DNA of 64,000 nucleotides from Streptomyces katrae. Lineage in GTDB: Bacteria > Actinomycetota > Actinomycetes > Streptomycetales > Streptomycetaceae. Positions 34,729 through 42,150 of the stretch are shown here, piece after piece (the first letter of the stretch is position 1; each line of letters opens with the position of its first letter). The notes beneath the pieces were generated by a model that was not told the DNA's origin, did no database searches, and was given only the letters and a program-made list of their open reading frames with translations. The stretch is taken from assembly GCF_002028425.1 (NCBI RefSeq), contig NZ_CP020042.1:6857560-6921559 (forward strand), read 5' to 3'. Position numbers and translations under genes: made by a program.

Positions 34729-35808
34729 ATGGCAACGGGCGGGACGACGGGCGCGGCGCGGGTCGAGGGGAACACCCTGCTGCTGGGCGACGGGGTACGA
34801 ATCAGGTTCATCCGGACACTGCGCCTCCCGGAGTCGGGGACGCACGCGCTCCCGCCGGGGCTCGGGGAGTTCCCGCTGCGCCGCGTCGAGGACTATCCGG
34901 ACACCGTCCCCGCGGAATGGCGGGCCAAGGGCGGCGTGATGCTGCCGGTGTACCTGCGCGAGGCGATGTGGCTGGCCTTCGGCGGCTCGACCGAGCCGGC
35001 CGCGCTCCAGGTCGGGGTCGGCAAGGTGTGCGCCGTGTCGGGGAAGCCGTGGACCGGCCGGCTGGCGCGCGACCCGCAGAACTACGTGGTGCTGCCCCGT
35101 CAGCCGTGGCTGGACGGGATCAACTCGGGCGACGGGACGGTCCGCCAGTTCGTCGCCGTCCCGCTCGGCCTCGGTGCCACGGTCGAGGGGCAGGTCTCCG
35201 GCGAGGAGACCATGGGCGGGGTGCAGCTCCAGGCGTTCCCGCTGGAACCGGACGCCCTGGCCGCGTGGCGCGACGCGAACCGCCCGCGTCCCGCGCGTCC
35301 CGTGTTCGGCGGGGCGCCGCCCGCGCCCGGATCGGCGCCCGGCGGCTACGGGGCCCCGCCGCCCGCGCCGATGGCGATGGCCGCTCCGGGCGCCGCGCCG
35401 GCCCCGCCGGCCGCCCCGCGGGCCGCGGCCCCGGTGATGGGGCTCGGCGTCGGCGGGTCGATGCGCCAGGAGGTCTACCGCGACGAGCGCAAGCCCTCCG
35501 CCTGGGCGGACACCCCCGCCGCGCGGGTCTTCGTCCACCTGGTCACCCCGCCCGAGTGGCGCCGCATCACCGGCGAGGACTCCCCGCCCTCGCCCGTGGA
35601 CCGGGCCGCCTACACCAAGGCGGGACTGCCCTGGTACGACTACTACGACGAAAGCGGAACCGATCTGCCGGCCGCCGGACCGCTGGAGCAGGTCAAGCCG
35701 GTGGGCGACTGGCTCGGCGAGGACCACACGCCGTGGGCGCCCCCCGTGCCGGGACAGGTCAAGCACCTCGGGAAGGCGCCGCGCCCGGTGCAGGACGGGG
35801 ACTGGTAA
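34729..35808 (+). CDS. Conserved hypothetical protein with Ala/Pro linker
   Basis: The 359-residue protein has two ordered parts joined by a Pro/Ala/Gly linker (about residues 185-240). The N-terminal part contains EGNTLLLGDGVRIRFIRTLR and WLAFGGSTEPAALQVGVGKV. The C-terminal part holds VYRDERKPSAWADTPAARVF, WRRITGEDSPPSPVDRAAY and GLPWYDYYDE. No signal peptide or membrane helix is seen. I do not recognise an enzyme family; the acidic, aromatic C-terminal segment suggests a binding surface. The gene stands alone before the tRNA-like unit. Confidence 0.6.
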   Translation: MATGGTTGAARVEGNTLLLGDGVRIRFIRTLRLPESGTHALPPGLGEFPLRRVEDYPDTVPAEWRAKGGVMLPVYLREAMWLAFGGSTEPAALQVGVGKVCAVSGKPWTGRLARDPQNYVVLPRQPWLDGINSGDGTVRQFVAVPLGLGATVEGQVSGEETMGGVQLQAFPLEPDALAAWRDANRPRPARPVFGGAPPAPGSAPGGYGAPPPAPMAMAAPGAAPAPPAAPRAAAPVMGLGVGGSMRQEVYRDERKPSAWADTPAARVFVHLVTPPEWRRITGEDSPPSPVDRAAYTKAGLPWYDYYDESGTDLPAAGPLEQVKPVGDWLGEDHTPWAPPVPGQVKHLGKAPRPVQDGDW

Positions 35809-35870: not shown

Positions 35871-35876
35871 TATGAT
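35871..35876 (+). promoter_or_regulatory. -10 box TATGAT in front of the tRNA-like RNA
   Basis: TATGAT matches the vegetative -10 at five of six bases. Its expected start (about 35883) coincides with the first base of the extended acceptor stem. No clear -35 was found at 35848-35853. Confidence 0.55.
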
Positions 35877-35883
35877 CACCGCA

Positions 35884-35959
35884 GCAAGGCCGTAGCGCAG
35901 AGGTCGTCGCGCCCAAGCATCGAGCTGGAGGACGTCGGTTCGAATCCGACCGGTCTTGC
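35884..35959 (+). ncRNA. tRNA-like RNA with non-canonical anticodon arm
   Basis: The sequence folds into most of a tRNA. Acceptor stem: AAGGCCG (35886-35892) with CGGTCTT (35951-35957), extendable by GC at each outer end. T8 and A9 follow, then a D arm of GCGC/GCGC with GG in the loop, a 5-base variable loop AGGAC, and a perfect T arm GTCGG-TTCGAAT-CCGAC. The part between D arm and variable loop (35913-35928) is only 16 bases where 18 are expected. It pairs only with a bulged A and a 5-base loop ATCGA, and U33 is not in place. No CCA is encoded. It could be a tRNA pseudogene, a regulatory tRNA mimic or a very unusual tRNA. Confidence 0.6.
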
Positions 35960-35970
35960 GTCTTCTTTCC

Positions 35971-36015
35971 CGTCCTGACGGCCGGCGCGCACCGCCGTGC
36001 CGTGCCGTCAGGACG
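35971..36015 (+). terminator. Hairpin terminator of the tRNA-like unit
   Basis: CGTCCTGACGGC (35971-35982) and GCCGTCAGGACG (36004-36015) are perfectly complementary. The stem starts 11 bases after the tRNA-like element and ends 57 bases before the LRR gene. Confidence 0.65.
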
Positions 36016-36072
36016 CTCGTACCCGAAGTTGCTCGGTCGCCGGAAGCCGGCGAAGGAACCGGTGGAGTGGTG

Positions 36073-37224
36073 ATGACACGGCCGACGCCCGTACGGTGCC
36101 CCGCGATCGAGCACCCGGACCTGCCCCTCGCCGACCCGGCGGCCCTGGACCCGCTGCTCGCCCGCCTCGCGCAGGACCACCCGGTCGCCACCGACGAGAC
36201 CTTCCCCCTCGGCACCCTGCGCGCCGACGGCCGCGTCGACCTCTGCAAGCAGGGCCTCGGCCCCGCCGGAGCCGCCCGGCTGCTGCCCGCGGCCACCGCC
36301 TCCCCGCACGCCGCGCACCTCCTGCTCGGCACCAACTCCCTCGCCGACGAAGGCGCCCGCACCCTCGCCGCCGCCCTCACCGCGGCCGGCCCGGACCACG
36401 GGCTGCACACCCTCTACCTCGGCTGCAACCGCATCGGCCCCGACGGCCTCCTCGCCCTCGCCGGAGCCCTCGCCGAGGACACCGGCGTCCGCGCCCTCTG
36501 GCTCAAGCGGAACCCGCTGCACGAGGACGGCGCCCGGATCCTGGCCGCCCTGCTGCGCCGCAACACCGCGCTGCGCACCCTCGACCTCGTCAACACCGGC
36601 ATCACCGCCGACGGCGTACGCCTCCTCCTGGACGCGCTGCGCACCCGCGAGACCCCGCTCGAACGCATCTACCTCGGCGGCAACGGCCTCACCGCCGAAG
36701 CGGCCCCGCTGCTGGCCGCCCTCATCCGCGAGGCCGGGGTCCGCGAGCTGTACGTCCCCGCCAACCACCTCGGCGACGAGGGCGCCGCGATCCTGGCGGC
36801 CGCCGCCGCCGAAGCCGGACCTGGCCGCCCGGTGCGCCTGGGCCTCGGTGGCAACGGCATCGGCGTTCCCGGAGCCCGCGCCCTGGCCGCGGCCCTCGGC
36901 GGGATCGAGTCCCTGGACCTCGGCCGGGTCATGTCCGAGCGCAGCCTCGGCTCCACCGGCAACGCCACCGGCGACGAGGGCGCGTACGCCCTGGCCGACG
37001 CGCTGCCCGGCAGCGCGCTGCGCCGCCTCGAACTGCGCCACACCGGCATCACCGGCCGCGGCGCCAAGCGCCTGCTGGCCGCACTGCCGGACGGCAGCCC
37101 CCTGGAGCACGTCGGCCTCGGCCCCGGTACCCCCCGGCGCATCAAGCGCTCCTTCGCCGAACGGCTGCGCCCCGCCCGGCCCGGCCACCCGGACCTGCGG
37201 GCCATCGGCAGCGTGTACCGGTGA
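36073..37224 (+). CDS. Leucine-rich repeat (RNI-like) protein
   Basis: The 383-residue protein consists of about eight repeats of roughly 28 residues of ribonuclease-inhibitor type. Examples are LHTLYLGCNRIGPDGLLALAG, VRALWLKRNPLHEDGARIL, LRTLDLVNTGITADGVRLLL and LERIYLGGNGLTAEAAPLL, with the LxLxxNxL pattern. A curved protein-binding scaffold with no enzymatic residue is expected, and no signal peptide is seen, so it is cytoplasmic. ATG at 36073 follows GGTGGAG. It overlaps the ankyrin-type gene by GTGA and heads a five-gene operon with a MoxR ATPase and a VWA protein. Confidence 0.88.
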   Translation: MTRPTPVRCPAIEHPDLPLADPAALDPLLARLAQDHPVATDETFPLGTLRADGRVDLCKQGLGPAGAARLLPAATASPHAAHLLLGTNSLADEGARTLAAALTAAGPDHGLHTLYLGCNRIGPDGLLALAGALAEDTGVRALWLKRNPLHEDGARILAALLRRNTALRTLDLVNTGITADGVRLLLDALRTRETPLERIYLGGNGLTAEAAPLLAALIREAGVRELYVPANHLGDEGAAILAAAAAEAGPGRPVRLGLGGNGIGVPGARALAAALGGIESLDLGRVMSERSLGSTGNATGDEGAYALADALPGSALRRLELRHTGITGRGAKRLLAALPDGSPLEHVGLGPGTPRRIKRSFAERLRPARPGHPDLRAIGSVYR

Positions 37225-39068
37225 GCGCGTCCGGCGAGCAGCCCCTCGCCGACCTGCCGCCCGGCGCCCTGCCCGACGAGGACGCCGCCGCCTGGCAGCG
37301 CGTCCGCCGCTACGCGGTGCCCCGCTGGATGATCGAGCAGGCCACCGCGCACCGCCTGGCCGGGGACTGGCGCGCCGCCTGCGCCGCCGCCGGAGTCGAG
37401 GTCGCCTTCGACCTGCCCGCGCTCGCCTCCGCGTACGGGACCGCAGTCGCCCGCGAGGCGGAGGCCGACCTGCTCCACCTGGTCCCCGAGCTGCTGCGCT
37501 GGCACCTGCCCCGGGTCCTGGGCGGCCGCACCGTCCTGGCCCCCAACCGGCGCGTCGTACTGGCCCGTTACGGCCGGGACGGGGCCGCGCCCGTCCTGTA
37601 CGCCACCACCCGCGCCATGGTGGACGGCCCGCAGCGGCTGCGGCTGCACTGCGCGCCCGTCGACCCGGCGCGCAAGCGCCACGCCTACGCGGGCTGGGTC
37701 ACCGAGGACTGGACCGGCGCGCCCTGGTTCTGGGACTCCCGGCACACCGCCGCACTGCGCTCCTGCGCCGGCCCCGCCGGCCGTCTCCCCTTCTTCCACG
37801 CCGACGGCACCCCGCTCGGCGCCGACGCGCTGCCCTCCGCCGAACCCGCCCCCGGCGACCGTGCCGCCCGCACGGAGTGGGCCGCCGAGCTCTACCGGCG
37901 CGGCGACCTCGAGGCGGCCTTCGCCTCGGCCGGGATCGAGCTGGACTTCTCGCCCTTCGAACGGCGCGGCCGCCTCTACCCCACCCACGACGCCCGGCAA
38001 GCGCTGGAATCGGTCCCGCTGGAGCCGGTCCGGCTCGTGGAGGAGTTCCGCCGCCTGACCGCGGCGGGCGCGGGGGAGCGGTTCCGCTTCGCCCCGCACT
38101 GGCGCGCCCTGCTGCTGCTGGAGCCCGCCGGGGACGGGGCGGCGAGCGGCCTGCGGCTGCGGCTCGCCGACCCCCAGGCGGTGGGCGAAGTGACCCGGCT
38201 GCCCGACTACGTCTGGCAGCCGCTGCCCGACCCGTACCTCGTGCGCACCGGCCGGACCGCCCCGCACGAACTGCACCCGCTCGTCGCCGCCGCGCTGTTC
38301 CCCGGAGCAGGGCCGGCCGAGGGTCCGCCCGGCCCCGCCGCGCCCCGGCCCGTCCGGGTGCGCTGCGTCGGCGAGTGGCACGAGGTGCGCTCCCGGGACG
38401 GCGCACTCGAACTCCCGCACACCGCCGAGGAGCAGCAGCGCGAGCGCGCCCTGCGCGCCTTCGGCGGGGCCATCGCCGGCTGCTTCGCCGTGCGCGAGGC
38501 GTGGACCACCGGCAAGGGCCGCCTCCCGCGCGCCCTGCGCGCCGAGCGGCGCGAGCTGTTCGAACGCGTCCAGCACGGCGACACCCCCGGCGTCCTCGCG
38601 CTTCTCGACGCGGGCCTCGACCCCGGGGTGCGCAACGGCCGCGGCCAGGGCCTGCTGCACCTGCTGCCGTTCGTGCGCCACGAGGAGCTGCTGTCCCGGC
38701 TCCTGGAGGCCGGACTCGACCTGGAGCAGGCGGACGACGCCGACCGCACCCCGCTCCAGTGCGCCGTCCAGAACGGCGGCACCGCCGCCCTGGTCCGCGC
38801 GCTCCTCGCGGCCGGCGCGCGCACCGACGTGGTCGACACCATGGGCCTGGCGCTGGGCCAGGTGGTGCGCCGCTACAAGCGGACCGACCTCGCCTTCCTC
38901 AAGCAGCTGGTGGAGGAGCGCCACCCCGGCCTCGGCTTCGGCGAGTACGACGAGTTCATGGACGACCGCGAGGAGTGGGAGGAGGACCGGGAGTACGACG
39001 ACCACGACGGCTACGCGGTCCTCGGCGATCCCACGGGTCCGGTCGACGGCCAGGCAGGGAGAGCATGA
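37221..39068 (+). CDS. Large protein with C-terminal ankyrin repeats
   Basis: The 615-residue protein has a long N-terminal region (1 to about 435) with two similar blocks: residues 40-70 (AGDWRAACAAAGVEVAFDL) and 220-245 (RGDLEAAFASAGIELDFS). It may be an internal duplication. Ankyrin repeats occupy about 450-570 (VQHGDTPGVLALLDAGLDPG, LLEAGLDLEQADDADRTPL, LLAAGARTDVVDTMG). A very acidic tail (DREEWEEDREYDDHDG) ends the protein. GTG at 37221 overlaps the LRR stop. It is probably a protein-interaction or substrate-recognition factor for the MoxR/VWA pair downstream; the N-terminal domain is not recognised. Confidence 0.8.
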   Translation: MSASGEQPLADLPPGALPDEDAAAWQRVRRYAVPRWMIEQATAHRLAGDWRAACAAAGVEVAFDLPALASAYGTAVAREAEADLLHLVPELLRWHLPRVLGGRTVLAPNRRVVLARYGRDGAAPVLYATTRAMVDGPQRLRLHCAPVDPARKRHAYAGWVTEDWTGAPWFWDSRHTAALRSCAGPAGRLPFFHADGTPLGADALPSAEPAPGDRAARTEWAAELYRRGDLEAAFASAGIELDFSPFERRGRLYPTHDARQALESVPLEPVRLVEEFRRLTAAGAGERFRFAPHWRALLLLEPAGDGAASGLRLRLADPQAVGEVTRLPDYVWQPLPDPYLVRTGRTAPHELHPLVAAALFPGAGPAEGPPGPAAPRPVRVRCVGEWHEVRSRDGALELPHTAEEQQRERALRAFGGAIAGCFAVREAWTTGKGRLPRALRAERRELFERVQHGDTPGVLALLDAGLDPGVRNGRGQGLLHLLPFVRHEELLSRLLEAGLDLEQADDADRTPLQCAVQNGGTAALVRALLAAGARTDVVDTMGLALGQVVRRYKRTDLAFLKQLVEERHPGLGFGEYDEFMDDREEWEEDREYDDHDGYAVLGDPTGPVDGQAGRA

Positions 39069-40264
39069 CCACCGCACCGATGCGGCCCGCCCCCGCGCTG
39101 GCCGCCGCCGACGCCCTGGCCGCCCGGCTCGGCGCCACCCGCACCGAACCCGCGGCCAACCCCCAGCTGGAGGCCCTGGCCCTGGCGGTGACGGCCAATC
39201 AGCCCGTCCTGCTGTGGGGTGAGCCCGGCATCGGCAAGTCCGCCGGCATGGAGCGGCTCGCGGCCGCCCTCGGCGTCCGGCTGGAGACCGTCATCGCCAG
39301 CGTCCACGAGCCCTCCGACTTCGCCGGTCTGCCCATCGTCGGCGAGGACCCCGCCACCACCGGCGTGCCCATGGCGCCGCCGGACTGGGCGGTGCGCCTG
39401 GCCCGCACCGGGCACGGGCTGCTGTTCTTCGACGAGCTGTCCTCCGCCCCGCCCGCCGTCCAGGCCGCCCTCCTGCGCGTGGTCCTCGAACGCCGGGTCG
39501 GAAGCCTCGAACTGCCCGCCTCCGTACGGATCGTCGCGGCGGCCAACCCGCCCTCCAGCGCGGCCGACGGCTGGCACCTCAGCCCGCCCCTCGCCAACCG
39601 TTTCGTCCACCTCGACTGGACGCACGACGCCCGCACGGTCGCCCGCGGCATGGCCGGGATCTGGCCGGAGACGGCCCTGCCCGCCGTCGACCCCGCCCGG
39701 GCCGCCGGCGCGGCCGCCCGGGCCCGCGGCGTGATCTCCGGCTTCCTCACCGCCCGCCCCGGCCTCGTCCACCACATGCCGAACGACGCCGAGGGCCGCG
39801 GCCGGGCCTGGCCCTCCCCGCGCACCTGGGAGATGGCCCTGCGCATGCTGGCCACCGGCTACGCGTCCGGCGCGGGCCGGGAGGCGCTGTCGGCCGCGCT
39901 CACCGGGGCCGTCGGCGACGGCGCGGGCCTGGAGCTGCTGGCCTACCTGGAGAACCTCGACCTGCCCGACCCGGAGAAGGTGCTGGCCGACCCCGACGCC
40001 TTCGCCCTGCCCGGGCGCGGCGACCGGCAGCTGGCCTTCCTCATCGCGGTCGTGGCCGCCGTCCAGGGCGAACTCACCCGGCCCCGCTGGGAGGCGGGCT
40101 GGGCGGTGCTCGCCAAGGCCGTCGACGCGGGCGTGCCCGACGTGGCCGCGCGGGCCGCCGCCGACCTGGCCGCGATGCGCGACCCGTCCTGGCCCGTACC
40201 CGCCGGGATCGACGCCTTCGTGGAACTGCTCCAGCTGGCCGGGGCCCTCCCCGGCCCCCGCTGA
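39065..40264 (+). CDS. MoxR-type AAA+ ATPase
   Basis: The 399-residue protein has Walker A GEPGIGKS at residues 52-59, Walker B LLFFDELSSAPP, sensor-1 VAAANPPSSA and an arginine-containing LANRFVHLDW, all typical of MoxR. A C-terminal helical lid follows. MoxR ATPases remodel or activate partner proteins that usually carry VWA domains, and the next gene encodes such a protein. ATG at 39065 overlaps the ankyrin-protein stop (ATGA), so the operon is tightly coupled. Confidence 0.92.
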   Translation: MTTAPMRPAPALAAADALAARLGATRTEPAANPQLEALALAVTANQPVLLWGEPGIGKSAGMERLAAALGVRLETVIASVHEPSDFAGLPIVGEDPATTGVPMAPPDWAVRLARTGHGLLFFDELSSAPPAVQAALLRVVLERRVGSLELPASVRIVAAANPPSSAADGWHLSPPLANRFVHLDWTHDARTVARGMAGIWPETALPAVDPARAAGAAARARGVISGFLTARPGLVHHMPNDAEGRGRAWPSPRTWEMALRMLATGYASGAGREALSAALTGAVGDGAGLELLAYLENLDLPDPEKVLADPDAFALPGRGDRQLAFLIAVVAAVQGELTRPRWEAGWAVLAKAVDAGVPDVAARAAADLAAMRDPSWPVPAGIDAFVELLQLAGALPGPR

Positions 40265-40281
40265 CCGGGCCGGCCGCACCC

Positions 40282-41487
40282 GTGGACCGACCCCTGGACC
40301 GGGCCAAGCTGCTCGCCGCCCGCTACGCGGCTGCCGAGGCCCGGCCCTACCTGGCCTCGGCCCTGTACGCGCTGACCGTCGTCCCCTCCCCGGGGCCGAC
40401 GGGGGTGAGCACGATGGGCGTCGACCGGCACTGGCGCTGCTACGTCTCGCCCGCGTTCGTCGAGCGGACCCCCGTGCCCGAGCTCGCCGGCGTGTGGATC
40501 CACGAGGTCGCCCACCTGCTGCGCGACCACCACGGCCGGGCCGACCGGCTCCCCGCCGCCGACCAGCGCGATCCGCTGCGGATCAACATCGCCCAGGACT
40601 GCGAGATCAACGACGACCTCCTCGCCGACGGGCTCAGGCTCCCCGAGGGCCGGATGGAGCCGGGCCGTTTCGGCCTCCCCGCCGGCGGGCTGTTCGAGGG
40701 CTACCTGCCCGCCATCCCGCACACGCCCCCGCACGCGCACGTGGACTGCGGCTCGGGGGCGCACGGCGTCCCCGCGCCCTGGGAACTCGGCGCGGCGGAC
40801 GGCGCCGCCCGGATCGGCCCGGTGGAGGCGGAGGCCCTGCGCCGGACCACCGCCCAGGCCGTCCGCGCCCACCGGCGCACCCGGGGCCGCGGCAGCGTCC
40901 CGGCCGGCTGGGAACGCTGGGCGGAGCAGGTGCTGGAGCCGGTCGTGGACTGGCGGCGCGCCCTGCGCGGGGCGGTCCGGGAGGCCGCGGCCTGGGCCTG
41001 CGGCGCCGTGGACTACACCTACCGCCGCCCCTCGCGCCGCACCCCCGCGCTGGGCGGCCGGGTGGTGCTGCCGAGCCTGCGCAGGCCACTGCCCCGGGTC
41101 GCGATCGTCGTCGACACCTCCGGCTCCATGGGGGACGCGGAACTCGCCGCCGCGCTGGGCGAGGTGACCGGGGTGCTGCGGGAGGTCGGCGTCGGCGGCA
41201 ACCGGGTCGCGGTACTGGCCTGCGACGCCGACGTACAGGCCGTGAACCGGGTGACCAGCGCCGAGCAGGTGACCCTCGCCGGGGGCGGCGGCACCGACAT
41301 GCGGGTGGGCATCGCGGCCGCGCTGGACGTGCCGGACCGGCCGGGCATCGTCGTGGTCCTGACCGACGGCTTGACCCCCTGGCCGGAGGGCGCCCTGCCC
41401 TGCCGGGTGATCGCCGCACTGATCGGACCGGACGCCCCGCAGCCGCCGGACGGTGTGGAGACCGTACGGGTGACCCCCCTGGACTGA
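40282..41487 (+). CDS. VWA protein with HExxH metallopeptidase-like domain (DUF2201 type)
   Basis: The 401-residue protein has an N-terminal putative metallopeptidase region with HEVAH at residues 74-78 followed by LLRDHHGRAD and CEINDDLL. Its C-terminal VWA domain has a complete MIDAS (DTSGSM starting at Asp278, later GGGGTDM and LTDGLTPW). The combination is known in MoxR-linked DUF2201 proteins. The MoxR partner, encoded 17 bases upstream, should act on it. Whether the HExxH site is active is unknown. The start is GTG at 40282. Confidence 0.9.
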   Translation: MDRPLDRAKLLAARYAAAEARPYLASALYALTVVPSPGPTGVSTMGVDRHWRCYVSPAFVERTPVPELAGVWIHEVAHLLRDHHGRADRLPAADQRDPLRINIAQDCEINDDLLADGLRLPEGRMEPGRFGLPAGGLFEGYLPAIPHTPPHAHVDCGSGAHGVPAPWELGAADGAARIGPVEAEALRRTTAQAVRAHRRTRGRGSVPAGWERWAEQVLEPVVDWRRALRGAVREAAAWACGAVDYTYRRPSRRTPALGGRVVLPSLRRPLPRVAIVVDTSGSMGDAELAAALGEVTGVLREVGVGGNRVAVLACDADVQAVNRVTSAEQVTLAGGGGTDMRVGIAAALDVPDRPGIVVVLTDGLTPWPEGALPCRVIAALIGPDAPQPPDGVETVRVTPLD

Positions 41488-41604
41488 GCCGCGAACTGGC
41501 CGGTTGTGTACGGTGGTTCACCCGGTGATCGGCAACGCGTGGCAGCATGGCCGGGCCGGACGCGGGGGACACGGCCCGCGGCGGCCGAGCCGAGGGGGAG
41601 TCCG

Positions 41605-42150
41605 GTGACCGGAGTACGCAAGAGCCTGGCCAAGGTGGAGATAGCCCTGCGCTGGGACCCCAGCCCCGCCGGCACGCCCCCGCACGACCTCGACCTGGTC
41701 GCCGGGGTCTTCGGGGCCGGCGACCCGCACGGGCAGCCGGTCTACCTCGTCCACTTCGGCAGCCGTGCCCCCGACGGCACGATCACCCTCGACCGGGACA
41801 GCCGCAACGGCCAGGGCTTCGGCTGGGACGAGGTGATGACCCTCGAACTGGACCGGCTGGCCCCCGACCTGGTCCGCGTGGTGGTCGGGGTGGTGATCCA
41901 GGACCCGGGCCCGGCGGGCGCGCCCGGCCGTACGGTCTTCTCCGCCGTCGCGGGCACGGGCCTGCGGATCCGCGAGGGCCACACCGACCTCGCCACCGGC
42001 GACTTCACCGAGCTCGCCGGGGCCACGGCGGCCACCGTCGCCGAGTTCGTCCGCGACGGCGGGAGCGGCTGGACGCTGGACGCCCGGGCCCACGGCTTCG
42101 ACGCGGACCCGCAGGAGTACACCCGGCTGATGGGCGCGGCCCGGGACTGA
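41605..42150 (+). CDS. TerD-family protein
   Basis: The 181-residue protein begins VRKSLAKVEIALRWDPSPAG, then LDLVAGVFGAGDPHG and VHFGSRAPDGTITLDRDSRNG, and DEVMTLELDRLAPDLVRVVVGV. These are the TerD calcium-binding beta-sandwich blocks. Ter proteins work with VWA and MoxR-like factors in stress or phage-defence complexes. GTG at 41605 has GAGGGGGAG just upstream. It follows the VWA gene by 117 bases and precedes a terminator, so it may be the last gene of the operon or a separate unit. Confidence 0.85.
   Translation: MTGVRKSLAKVEIALRWDPSPAGTPPHDLDLVAGVFGAGDPHGQPVYLVHFGSRAPDGTITLDRDSRNGQGFGWDEVMTLELDRLAPDLVRVVVGVVIQDPGPAGAPGRTVFSAVAGTGLRIREGHTDLATGDFTELAGATAATVAEFVRDGGSGWTLDARAHGFDADPQEYTRLMGAARD

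Follow-up and report, generated by a model that had tools for sequence, protein, structure and literature searches.

A predicted tRNA-like RNA gene linked to a conserved LRR–ankyrin–MoxR–metallopeptidase/VWA cassette in Streptomyces and other actinomycetes

Gene content of the locus

Analysis of a 64,000-nt stretch of the Streptomyces katrae chromosome (contig NZ_CP020042.1, positions 6,857,560 to 6,921,559; hereafter, the window, part of a host genome of 8.06 Mb) revealed a predicted tRNA-like RNA gene at the head of a compact cassette encoding a leucine-rich repeat (LRR) protein, an ankyrin-type (ANK) protein, a MoxR ATPase, and a protein that combines a metallopeptidase motif with a von Willebrand factor A (VWA) domain. 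A preliminary description of this DNA had joined these four genes and a downstream TerD gene in a single five-gene complex and had overlooked the RNA gene. By sequence comparison, we show that the unit consists of the predicted tRNA-like RNA, the LRR protein, the ANK-type third component, MoxR, and the metallopeptidase-VWA protein, and that TerD is a bystander.

All features of the locus lie on the (+) strand. The RNA gene (35886..35961) was called by ARAGORN as tRNA-Arg with anticodon TCG (35886–35959), matched the Rfam tRNA family at 38.8 bits, and scored 86 bits against R1, a model that we built for this RNA; a −10 box (TATGAT, 35871..35876) lies 9 nt 5′ of its start. Between the RNA and LRR genes, a strong GC-rich hairpin (35971..36015, folded for the window only) is a possible terminator or processing element, with the region 35960–36072 folding at −60.1 kcal/mol (z = −3.34). 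The LRR gene (36073..37224; 383 aa, ATG start, LRR_6 repeats by Pfam) overlaps by 4 bases the GTG-initiated gene for the ANK-type third component (37221..39068; 615 aa, Ank_2 at residues 450–537), which in turn overlaps by 4 bases the ATG-initiated gene for a MoxR-class AAA+ ATPase (39065..40264; 399 aa, AAA_5). The gene for the VWA protein follows after 17 bases (40282..41487; 401 aa, GTG start, DUF2201_N and DUF2201), and that for the TerD-domain protein, a pre-existing chromosomal neighbor outside the system, after a further 117 bases (41605..42150; GTG start, 53.8 bits against a Pfam cutoff of 25.3). Coordinates, spacing, and domains of all five genes, including the HExxH motif of the VWA protein, agree with what had been described, as verified against the open reading frames of the window and by Pfam.

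The VWA protein matched DUF2201_N (E = 1.5e-29) and DUF2201 (E = 1.9e-17), and even at E-values up to 1 the only other Pfam families listed were VWA_2, VWA_CoxE, and VWA. Its metallopeptidase motif, HEVAH, occupies residues 74–78, and its VWA domain (residues 273–387 of 401) is followed by no further domain. The metal ion-dependent adhesion site (MIDAS)-type residues D278, S280, S282, T338, and D362 were identical in all 42 aligned VWA sequences, and HExxH was kept in 40 of the 41 sequences covering the site, the exception (L049) reading HHxxH. The MoxR protein carries GEPGIGKS, LLFFDE, and ANPP, which we take to be its Walker A, Walker B, and sensor 1 motifs. The ANK protein, whose named relatives are from Streptomyces, consists of a duplicated N-terminal region (residues ~1–430) without a Pfam match and of C-terminal ankyrin repeats, the only family detected at E-values up to 1. 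The internal duplication that had been proposed for this region is real: hhalign aligned residues 15–160 with residues 206–330 at a probability of 93% (E = 2.8e-7; 28% identity over 75 columns), compared with 0.3% for a control pairing residues 15–205 with the ankyrin tail. The structure model of the protein was of high confidence (pLDDT 89.8), and both structure searches were filled by matches to its ankyrin part.

The four-gene unit and its chromosomal neighbors

Among 101 congeneric genomes, relatives of the VWA protein occurred in 62, some as weak or partial matches, with a close branch (74–83% identity) in 11 genomes besides the window's own (12/101 in all) and a commoner branch at about 41–56% identity. 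All four genes (LRR, ANK, MoxR, and VWA) were present in 10 of the 11 fetched close-branch loci, the eleventh (L066) being a remnant with the VWA gene and a MoxR fragment and without LRR, ANK, or RNA. Strong LRR orthologs (71% identity or more) were found in 11 of the 101 genomes, including the window's own, and all of them lay in the cassette; in five further genomes, LRR relatives at 43–46% identity lay elsewhere. A comparison of called genes distinguished seven flanking gene sets among the 12 loci (window/L059/L060/L066; L067–L069; and one each for L061, L062, L063, L064, and L065), and beyond the cassette no gene family was common to all close-branch loci.

The same arrangement was seen among 80 named loci from Streptomyces and other actinomycete genera, the best of more than 550 actinomycete loci (judged by length, at least two of the 80, L153 and L171, duplicate the contigs of L066 and L063). 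The order LRR, ANK, MoxR, VWA was kept in 64 loci; in 5 others, the best ANK match stood before the LRR gene, 9 had ANK without an LRR match, and 2 had MoxR-VWA only. That LRR-ANK-MoxR-VWA forms a conserved, co-moving unit is, on these gene orders, well supported. The co-occurrence expected in the preliminary description therefore holds for four of its five genes and fails for TerD, and rather than being scattered in related genomes, which had been named as an outcome that would refute it, the four recur as a block.

With regard to TerD, a close homolog (E = 1e-20 or better) was found in 99 of the 101 congeneric genomes, far more than have the cassette. The window's genome has twelve TerD matches, of which the window copy is the weakest (53 bits) and the sole one passing E = 1e-20. 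At six empty sites (L109, L110, and L112–L115), TerD and the flanking genes of both sides stand in order with no cassette between them; the immediate left neighbor (34729–35808) is present at three of these (L112, L114, and L115), and in the L114 genome the cassette sits elsewhere (L061). A block upstream of TerD (ACTGGCCGG...TACGGT.GTTC, 41495..41519, read by eye) occurs in similar form at five of the six, with L110 and L113 differing partly and L109 lacking it, and marks the right edge of the insertion rather than a part of the cassette. A complex of all five genes, with TerD as sensor or effector, has in its favor that TerD lies 117 bases downstream of the VWA gene on the same strand and that a TerD homolog also adjoins the cassette in L059, L060, L066, and six named loci; those six are the only ones among the 80, and TerD is not conserved in the unit as it would be in a Ter stress system. 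Together with the empty sites and the near-universal homologs, this largely refutes the five-gene complex as a conserved unit and makes a part for TerD very improbable. The left neighbor itself, a 359-aa protein without a Pfam, NCBIfam, or PADLOC match, borders the insertion site in several relatives.

The window's site can also be read as a series, from empty (six loci) through tRNA-like RNA with ANK only (L111) and tRNA-like RNA with ANK-MoxR-VWA lacking LRR (L142) to the full cassette (window, L059, L060, and named ones) and the remnant (L066), with both reduced forms, L111 and L142, retaining the RNA together with the ANK gene. Many mobile elements integrate at tRNA genes, and the RNA gene might have been nothing more than the integration site of the cassette. 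None of the six empty sites holds a tRNA, which refutes this at the window's site, and the tRNA-like gene is present in cassettes at differing places; as a general explanation, we regard it as extremely improbable.

The patchy distribution of the close-branch VWA gene (12/101 genomes), the differing chromosomal settings, and the occurrence of decayed or incomplete cassettes at a single site also bear on whether the proteins are a housekeeping chaperone or cofactor-insertion pair, as are CoxD-CoxE and NorQ-NorD, with repeat proteins as adaptors and no link to conflict. The characterized MoxR-VWA pairs named in PMC7159879 and PMC9976466 do perform maturation or assembly jobs; set against the distribution, a housekeeping role appears unlikely.

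VWA relatives on plasmids and phages were all below 60% identity, and one tRNA-like core pattern had no exact match in viral contigs. DUF2201-like VWA proteins occurred in 97 phage records (64 from Vibrio) and 65 plasmid records (32 from Rhodococcus), and both phage/plasmid regions that were opened have an AAA ATPase gene near the VWA gene.

The commoner VWA branch belongs to a sister system, X-MoxR-VWA. Sister-branch VWA genes occur in about half of the 101 congeneric genomes (n = 53), and in 29 fetched loci we found VWA in 29, MoxR in 28, protein X (an ANK-protein homolog) in 25, and an LRR gene in none. In comparison with the cassette, X is homologous to the N-terminal part of the ANK protein (32–36% identity in eight aligned), MoxR is mostly about 60% and VWA mostly 46–54% identical, and, unlike the window's protein, the eight X proteins aligned lack the greater part of the ankyrin region; for the X of L039, Pfam gave nothing at E-values up to 1, hence no ankyrin there. 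This locus (G000:C1:161087-162232) is the sister system of the window's own genome and is without LRR or tRNA-like RNA. With the ankyrin region mostly missing from the eight aligned X proteins and no LRR gene in any of the 29 loci, neither ankyrin nor LRR belongs, on this comparison, to the constant core of the system.

Structure and linkage of the tRNA-like RNA gene

The tRNA-like gene recurs at the equivalent place in other cassettes, where ARAGORN called it Asp-ATC, SeC-TCA, Ala-AGC, or Cys-GCA; no call was made at the six empty sites. In Rfam, the tRNA family (RF00005) was the sole match, with 38.8–55.6 bits for the copies tested. We collected 95 cassette copies, 44 of which are in the building set of R1, so the model derives partly from the cassette; the remaining 51 copies, and all copies of 47 loci, lie outside that set.

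Covariation was assessed on an alignment of 53 copies with five measures, 500 shuffles, and slid controls. Pairing in the acceptor stem reached 98.4%, and six of its seven pairs varied at both positions; the anticodon stem was only 72.7% paired. For all five measures, none of the 500 shuffles was as good, and every slid control was exceeded. The D arm was almost invariant (mean entropy, 0.08 bits), and the 3′ tail read GCCA in 22 of the 95 copies. In the Streptomyces set (45 copies, including L140 from an Actinobacteria bacterium), paired cells numbered 314/315 in the acceptor stem, 135/135 in the D stem, and 225/225 in the T stem, as opposed to 114/225 in the anticodon stem, where 44 of the 45 copies form only two or three of five pairs. 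The T at position 33 (T33) was present in 0 of 45 copies in the model's register, with near-canonical loops, and in 2 of 45 in ARAGORN's. Measured against a canonical tRNA, the RNA has proper acceptor, D, and T arms, and the window copy and at least 43 of the 45 Streptomyces copies lack the combination of a 5-bp anticodon stem and U33 in either register; many copies from other genera have it. The covariation shows that the body of the predicted RNA is under selection; in Streptomyces that body is kept while decoding looks lost, and in other genera decoding looks possible.

A TAnnnT box was found 8–12 nt 5′ of the tRNA-like start in 93 of the 95 copies, compared with a mean of 0.3 and a maximum of 3 of 95 for random positions in the same loci, which shows a predicted −10 box of the sigma-70 type. 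Downstream, the distance from the RNA to the LRR gene fell into two groups, 24–111 nt and 1,356–1,867 nt. In loci of the second group with genes called, a zinc-ribbon plus SDR-like gene (SDR, short-chain dehydrogenase/reductase) lies in between. SDR enzymes carry YxxxK at the motif position, in place of which the SDR-like gene reads HTNMAK in 30 of 30 matches (25 distinct genes); its product is therefore probably not a working dehydrogenase. SDR-like paralogs occur in 91 of the 101 congeneric genomes, and two such loci that were opened (L274, G000:C1:6673882-6675312, and L276) have no tRNA-like gene nearby, so the SDR-like gene does not mark the system by itself.

The proximity of the RNA to the LRR gene in the first group, and elsewhere to an SDR-like or ANK-type gene, sometimes at only about 20 nt, is what one would expect if it were a cis-acting leader or an RNase P/Z processing signal controlling the gene behind it. 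A −10 box placed 8–12 nt before the 5′ end, as for a free tRNA gene, the strong hairpin between RNA and LRR in the window, and a D arm more nearly invariant than a processing signal should need all speak against this, and we consider a leader rather unlikely.

The linkage of the RNA to the LRR gene was examined in the genus and class-wide. In 61 congeneric genomes (~0.5 Gb), R1 at a threshold of 1e-13 gave 38 matches in 20 genomes, 13 of them at LRR loci; each of the 11 genomes in which LRR was matched carries the RNA at that same locus. R1 copies are present in the window, in all ten genus loci that are intact, and in L111 and L119–L123; the same search found no tRNA-like gene in any of the six empty sites or in the 29 fetched relatives without LRR, four of which (L050, L072, L075, and L078) have ARAGORN tRNA calls that R1 does not match. 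Of the 69 named loci with LRR, 62 have a same-strand tRNA-like gene no more than 2.5 kb upstream; among the other seven, five end at a contig edge, L204 has a decayed copy (44 bits) in the usual place, and L216 has a copy 2.9 kb away. Named loci without an LRR match (n = 11) have the RNA in three cases (L142, L202, and L213) and lack it in eight, six of which are ANK-MoxR-VWA. Under stricter filters, R1 was found in 6 of 148 genomes of a class-wide sample, the window's own included. Since one R1 match occurs per about 14 Mb, the linkage of the predicted RNA with LRR is far beyond chance; the family to which the RNA belongs extends beyond the cassette.

The RNA also heads other units. Single ANK genes follow it in L111 and L275; repeated RNA-headed units with ANK-type, SDR-like, or LRR genes lie upstream of MoxR-VWA in L174, L186, L207, L210, L216, and L217; and SDR-LRR pairs follow it in L119–L123, which have one or two tRNA-like genes, the zinc-ribbon/SDR-like gene, and the LRR gene, with no close MoxR-VWA. 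Three of the latter (L120, L121, and L123) have in common a 1,121–1,127-aa protein (49–58% identity) that is without a Pfam match in L120, and distant DUF2201_N proteins stand beside a third tRNA-like gene (ARAGORN Trp CCA) at L121:5166-6578 and L122:12050-13417.

In the window's genome, R1 gave four matches of 72–86 bits, the next best scoring 62. One of them (G000:C1:345142-345219, L219:8143-8220; 81.9 bits) is a free-standing 78-nt gene that resembles tRNA-Trp(CCA) and shares the D arm; the 16 kb opened there hold none of the cassette genes. Comparable CCA calls were made ten times in other congeneric genomes (L234, L235, L237, L238, L244–L247, L249, and L251). Cassette genes are likewise missing from the 16 kb opened at two further R1-like tRNA genes that lie ~600 nt apart (G000:C1:2129689-2129762 and 2130365-2130439, L220).

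A possible role in RNA surveillance

Parts of the cassette resemble known systems. In group 2.2 jumbo phages, a MoxR AAA+ protein has as its partner a vWA protein that bears a metallopeptidase domain at its N terminus, and a role of the pair in virion assembly has been proposed (PMC7824862). The cassette has the same layout, with DUF2201_N, DUF2201, and an adjacent MoxR, and phage records with related proteins surface for the cassette VWA query, all below 60% identity; the available part of that paper describes no LRR, ANK, or tRNA-like RNA. It does bear out the view that a MoxR-VWA pair of this kind is known. Known MoxR-VWA pairs in general are considered to act by remodeling partners to which the VWA domain binds (PMC7159879). 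PMC7159879 and PMC8195603 describe MoxR-vWA ternary conflict systems with VMAP, iSTAND, FtsH, beta-propeller, iSTAND2, or TERNS3 as third components, enriched in multicellular prokaryotes including actinobacteria. Like these, the cassette encodes MoxR, vWA, and a third component adjacently. Ankyrin is the sole Pfam match of its third component, although not all third components described for ternary systems need be in Pfam, and, where the ternary systems carry a variable effector domain either fused C-terminal to vWA or encoded by a linked gene, its VWA protein has the metallopeptidase domain before the VWA domain and none after it. No RNA component of ternary systems was found in the accessible text of these two papers (searched for tRNA, ncRNA, and DUF2201 in PMC7159879 and for tRNA in PMC8195603).

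Ro60 has a VWA domain as well. It was the top Foldseek match (E = 5.3e-4, TMq = 0.26) of the structure model of the VWA protein (pLDDT 84.8), but the VIA-align list covers mainly residues 241–401, the VWA part, with many VWA domains tied. Ro60/Rsr is genetically linked to tRNA-mimicking Y RNAs, among them YrlA, which carries a tRNA-like domain and has been suggested as a competitive inhibitor of an anticodon nuclease (Hughes et al., PMC7790460). A protein gene linked to a tRNA-like noncoding RNA gene, here a predicted one, is likewise found in the cassette, which differs in having no match to TROVE (the HEAT ring) at Pfam E-values up to 1, a metallopeptidase as its extra domain, and a MoxR partner. 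In the open literature searched, which takes in only a minority of subscription articles and no bioRxiv preprints in their own right, we found no paper combining a tRNA-like RNA with LRR/ANK/MoxR-VWA; the parts and the MoxR/metallopeptidase-VWA pairing are already published.

We tentatively propose, as a reading that falls somewhat short of an even chance, that the cassette is an RNA-protein surveillance switch, in which MoxR and the VWA/metallopeptidase act with repeat proteins that bind the tRNA-like RNA, perhaps as bait for sensing attack on tRNA. The third component, the LRR protein, or both would bind the RNA and hold it ready as bait or as a mimic of the cell's own tRNA. A tRNA-directed attack (by an anticodon nuclease, by a phage or competitor RNase, or through loss of modification) would bind, cut, or displace it; the MoxR ring, with the VWA protein as co-chaperone, might then remodel the complex, and the remodeling could expose or activate the HExxH domain, so that a target is cleaved or an effector released. 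A tRNA mimic as bait fits because the body of the RNA is kept and the anticodon arm is variable. The RNA accompanies LRR/SDR and ANK-type units rather than MoxR-VWA in general, from which we infer that it is the adaptors that bind it and that MoxR-VWA/protease may be a shared executor. RNA binding, sensing, and proteolysis by the cassette would give the sensor-activated complex of the preliminary description a form that includes the RNA.

Several observations weigh against this switch. Most R1 matches in the 61 congeneric genomes (25 of 38) lie away from LRR loci, nine of these genomes have R1 matches and no LRR match, and the three further matches in the window's genome have no cassette gene nearby; many off-locus matches are free-standing Trp(CCA)-type genes, although at least one (L275) heads a lone ANK gene. 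Conversely, ANK-MoxR-VWA occurs without LRR and RNA in six named loci (L168, L190, L193, L195, L196, and L214), and these, together with the sister system, indicate that MoxR-VWA can do without the RNA. The tRNA-like RNA alone folds no better than shuffles (z = 0.13), so the case for it rests on covariation and conservation. In PADLOC-DB 2.0.0, the third component matched PDC-M72A (E = 8.8e-9) over the ankyrin part only and MoxR matched an RtcR/PspF-type model (E = 8.9e-6) over part of the AAA domain only, and LRR, VWA, and TerD matched none of its models; with such ankyrin and AAA cross-matches alone, a defense role rests on analogy. Finally, in the 50 copies from other genera, the anticodon stem had 184 of 247 cells paired, four or five of the five pairs were formed in 30 copies, and T33 was present in 12 (model's register) or 27 (ARAGORN's), so that many of these copies could be real tRNAs.

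This last point leads to a rival explanation, in which the RNA gene is a true additional tRNA gene carried along by the cassette as a source of charged tRNA, for stress translation or as an aminoacyl donor, and the proteins work without it. The Rfam scores, the varied anticodons that accompany T33 in other genera, the GCCA tails, and the related genes found apart from the cassette, Trp(CCA) in many cases, would all suit such a tRNA. The Streptomyces copies would not, with the anticodon stem reduced in 44 of 45 while the other arms are intact and T33 missing in 43 of 45 (ARAGORN's register), nor would the several copies per locus that head separate units. We regard an extra tRNA as doubtful, though it deserves to be kept in view.

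The repeated units suggest a broader and still more speculative form of the surveillance switch, namely a new actinomycete class of RNA surveillance systems with replaceable tRNA-mimic baits, each heading a unit with its own adaptor (ANK-type, or a pseudo-SDR plus LRR), and a shared MoxR-VWA/metalloprotease executioner. If the switch exists, what the cell measures would be an attack on its tRNA and not a component of a phage. Systems built on MoxR-VWA are widespread, and a covarying tRNA-like RNA that moves with one of their branches offers a concrete candidate for the trigger of conflict-type systems; it would also join MoxR-VWA conflict systems with tRNA-mimicking RNAs such as YrlA. More generally, the ARAGORN assignments made here (Arg, Asp, SeC, and Cys) suggest that tRNA-mimicking RNAs can hide under ordinary tRNA calls.

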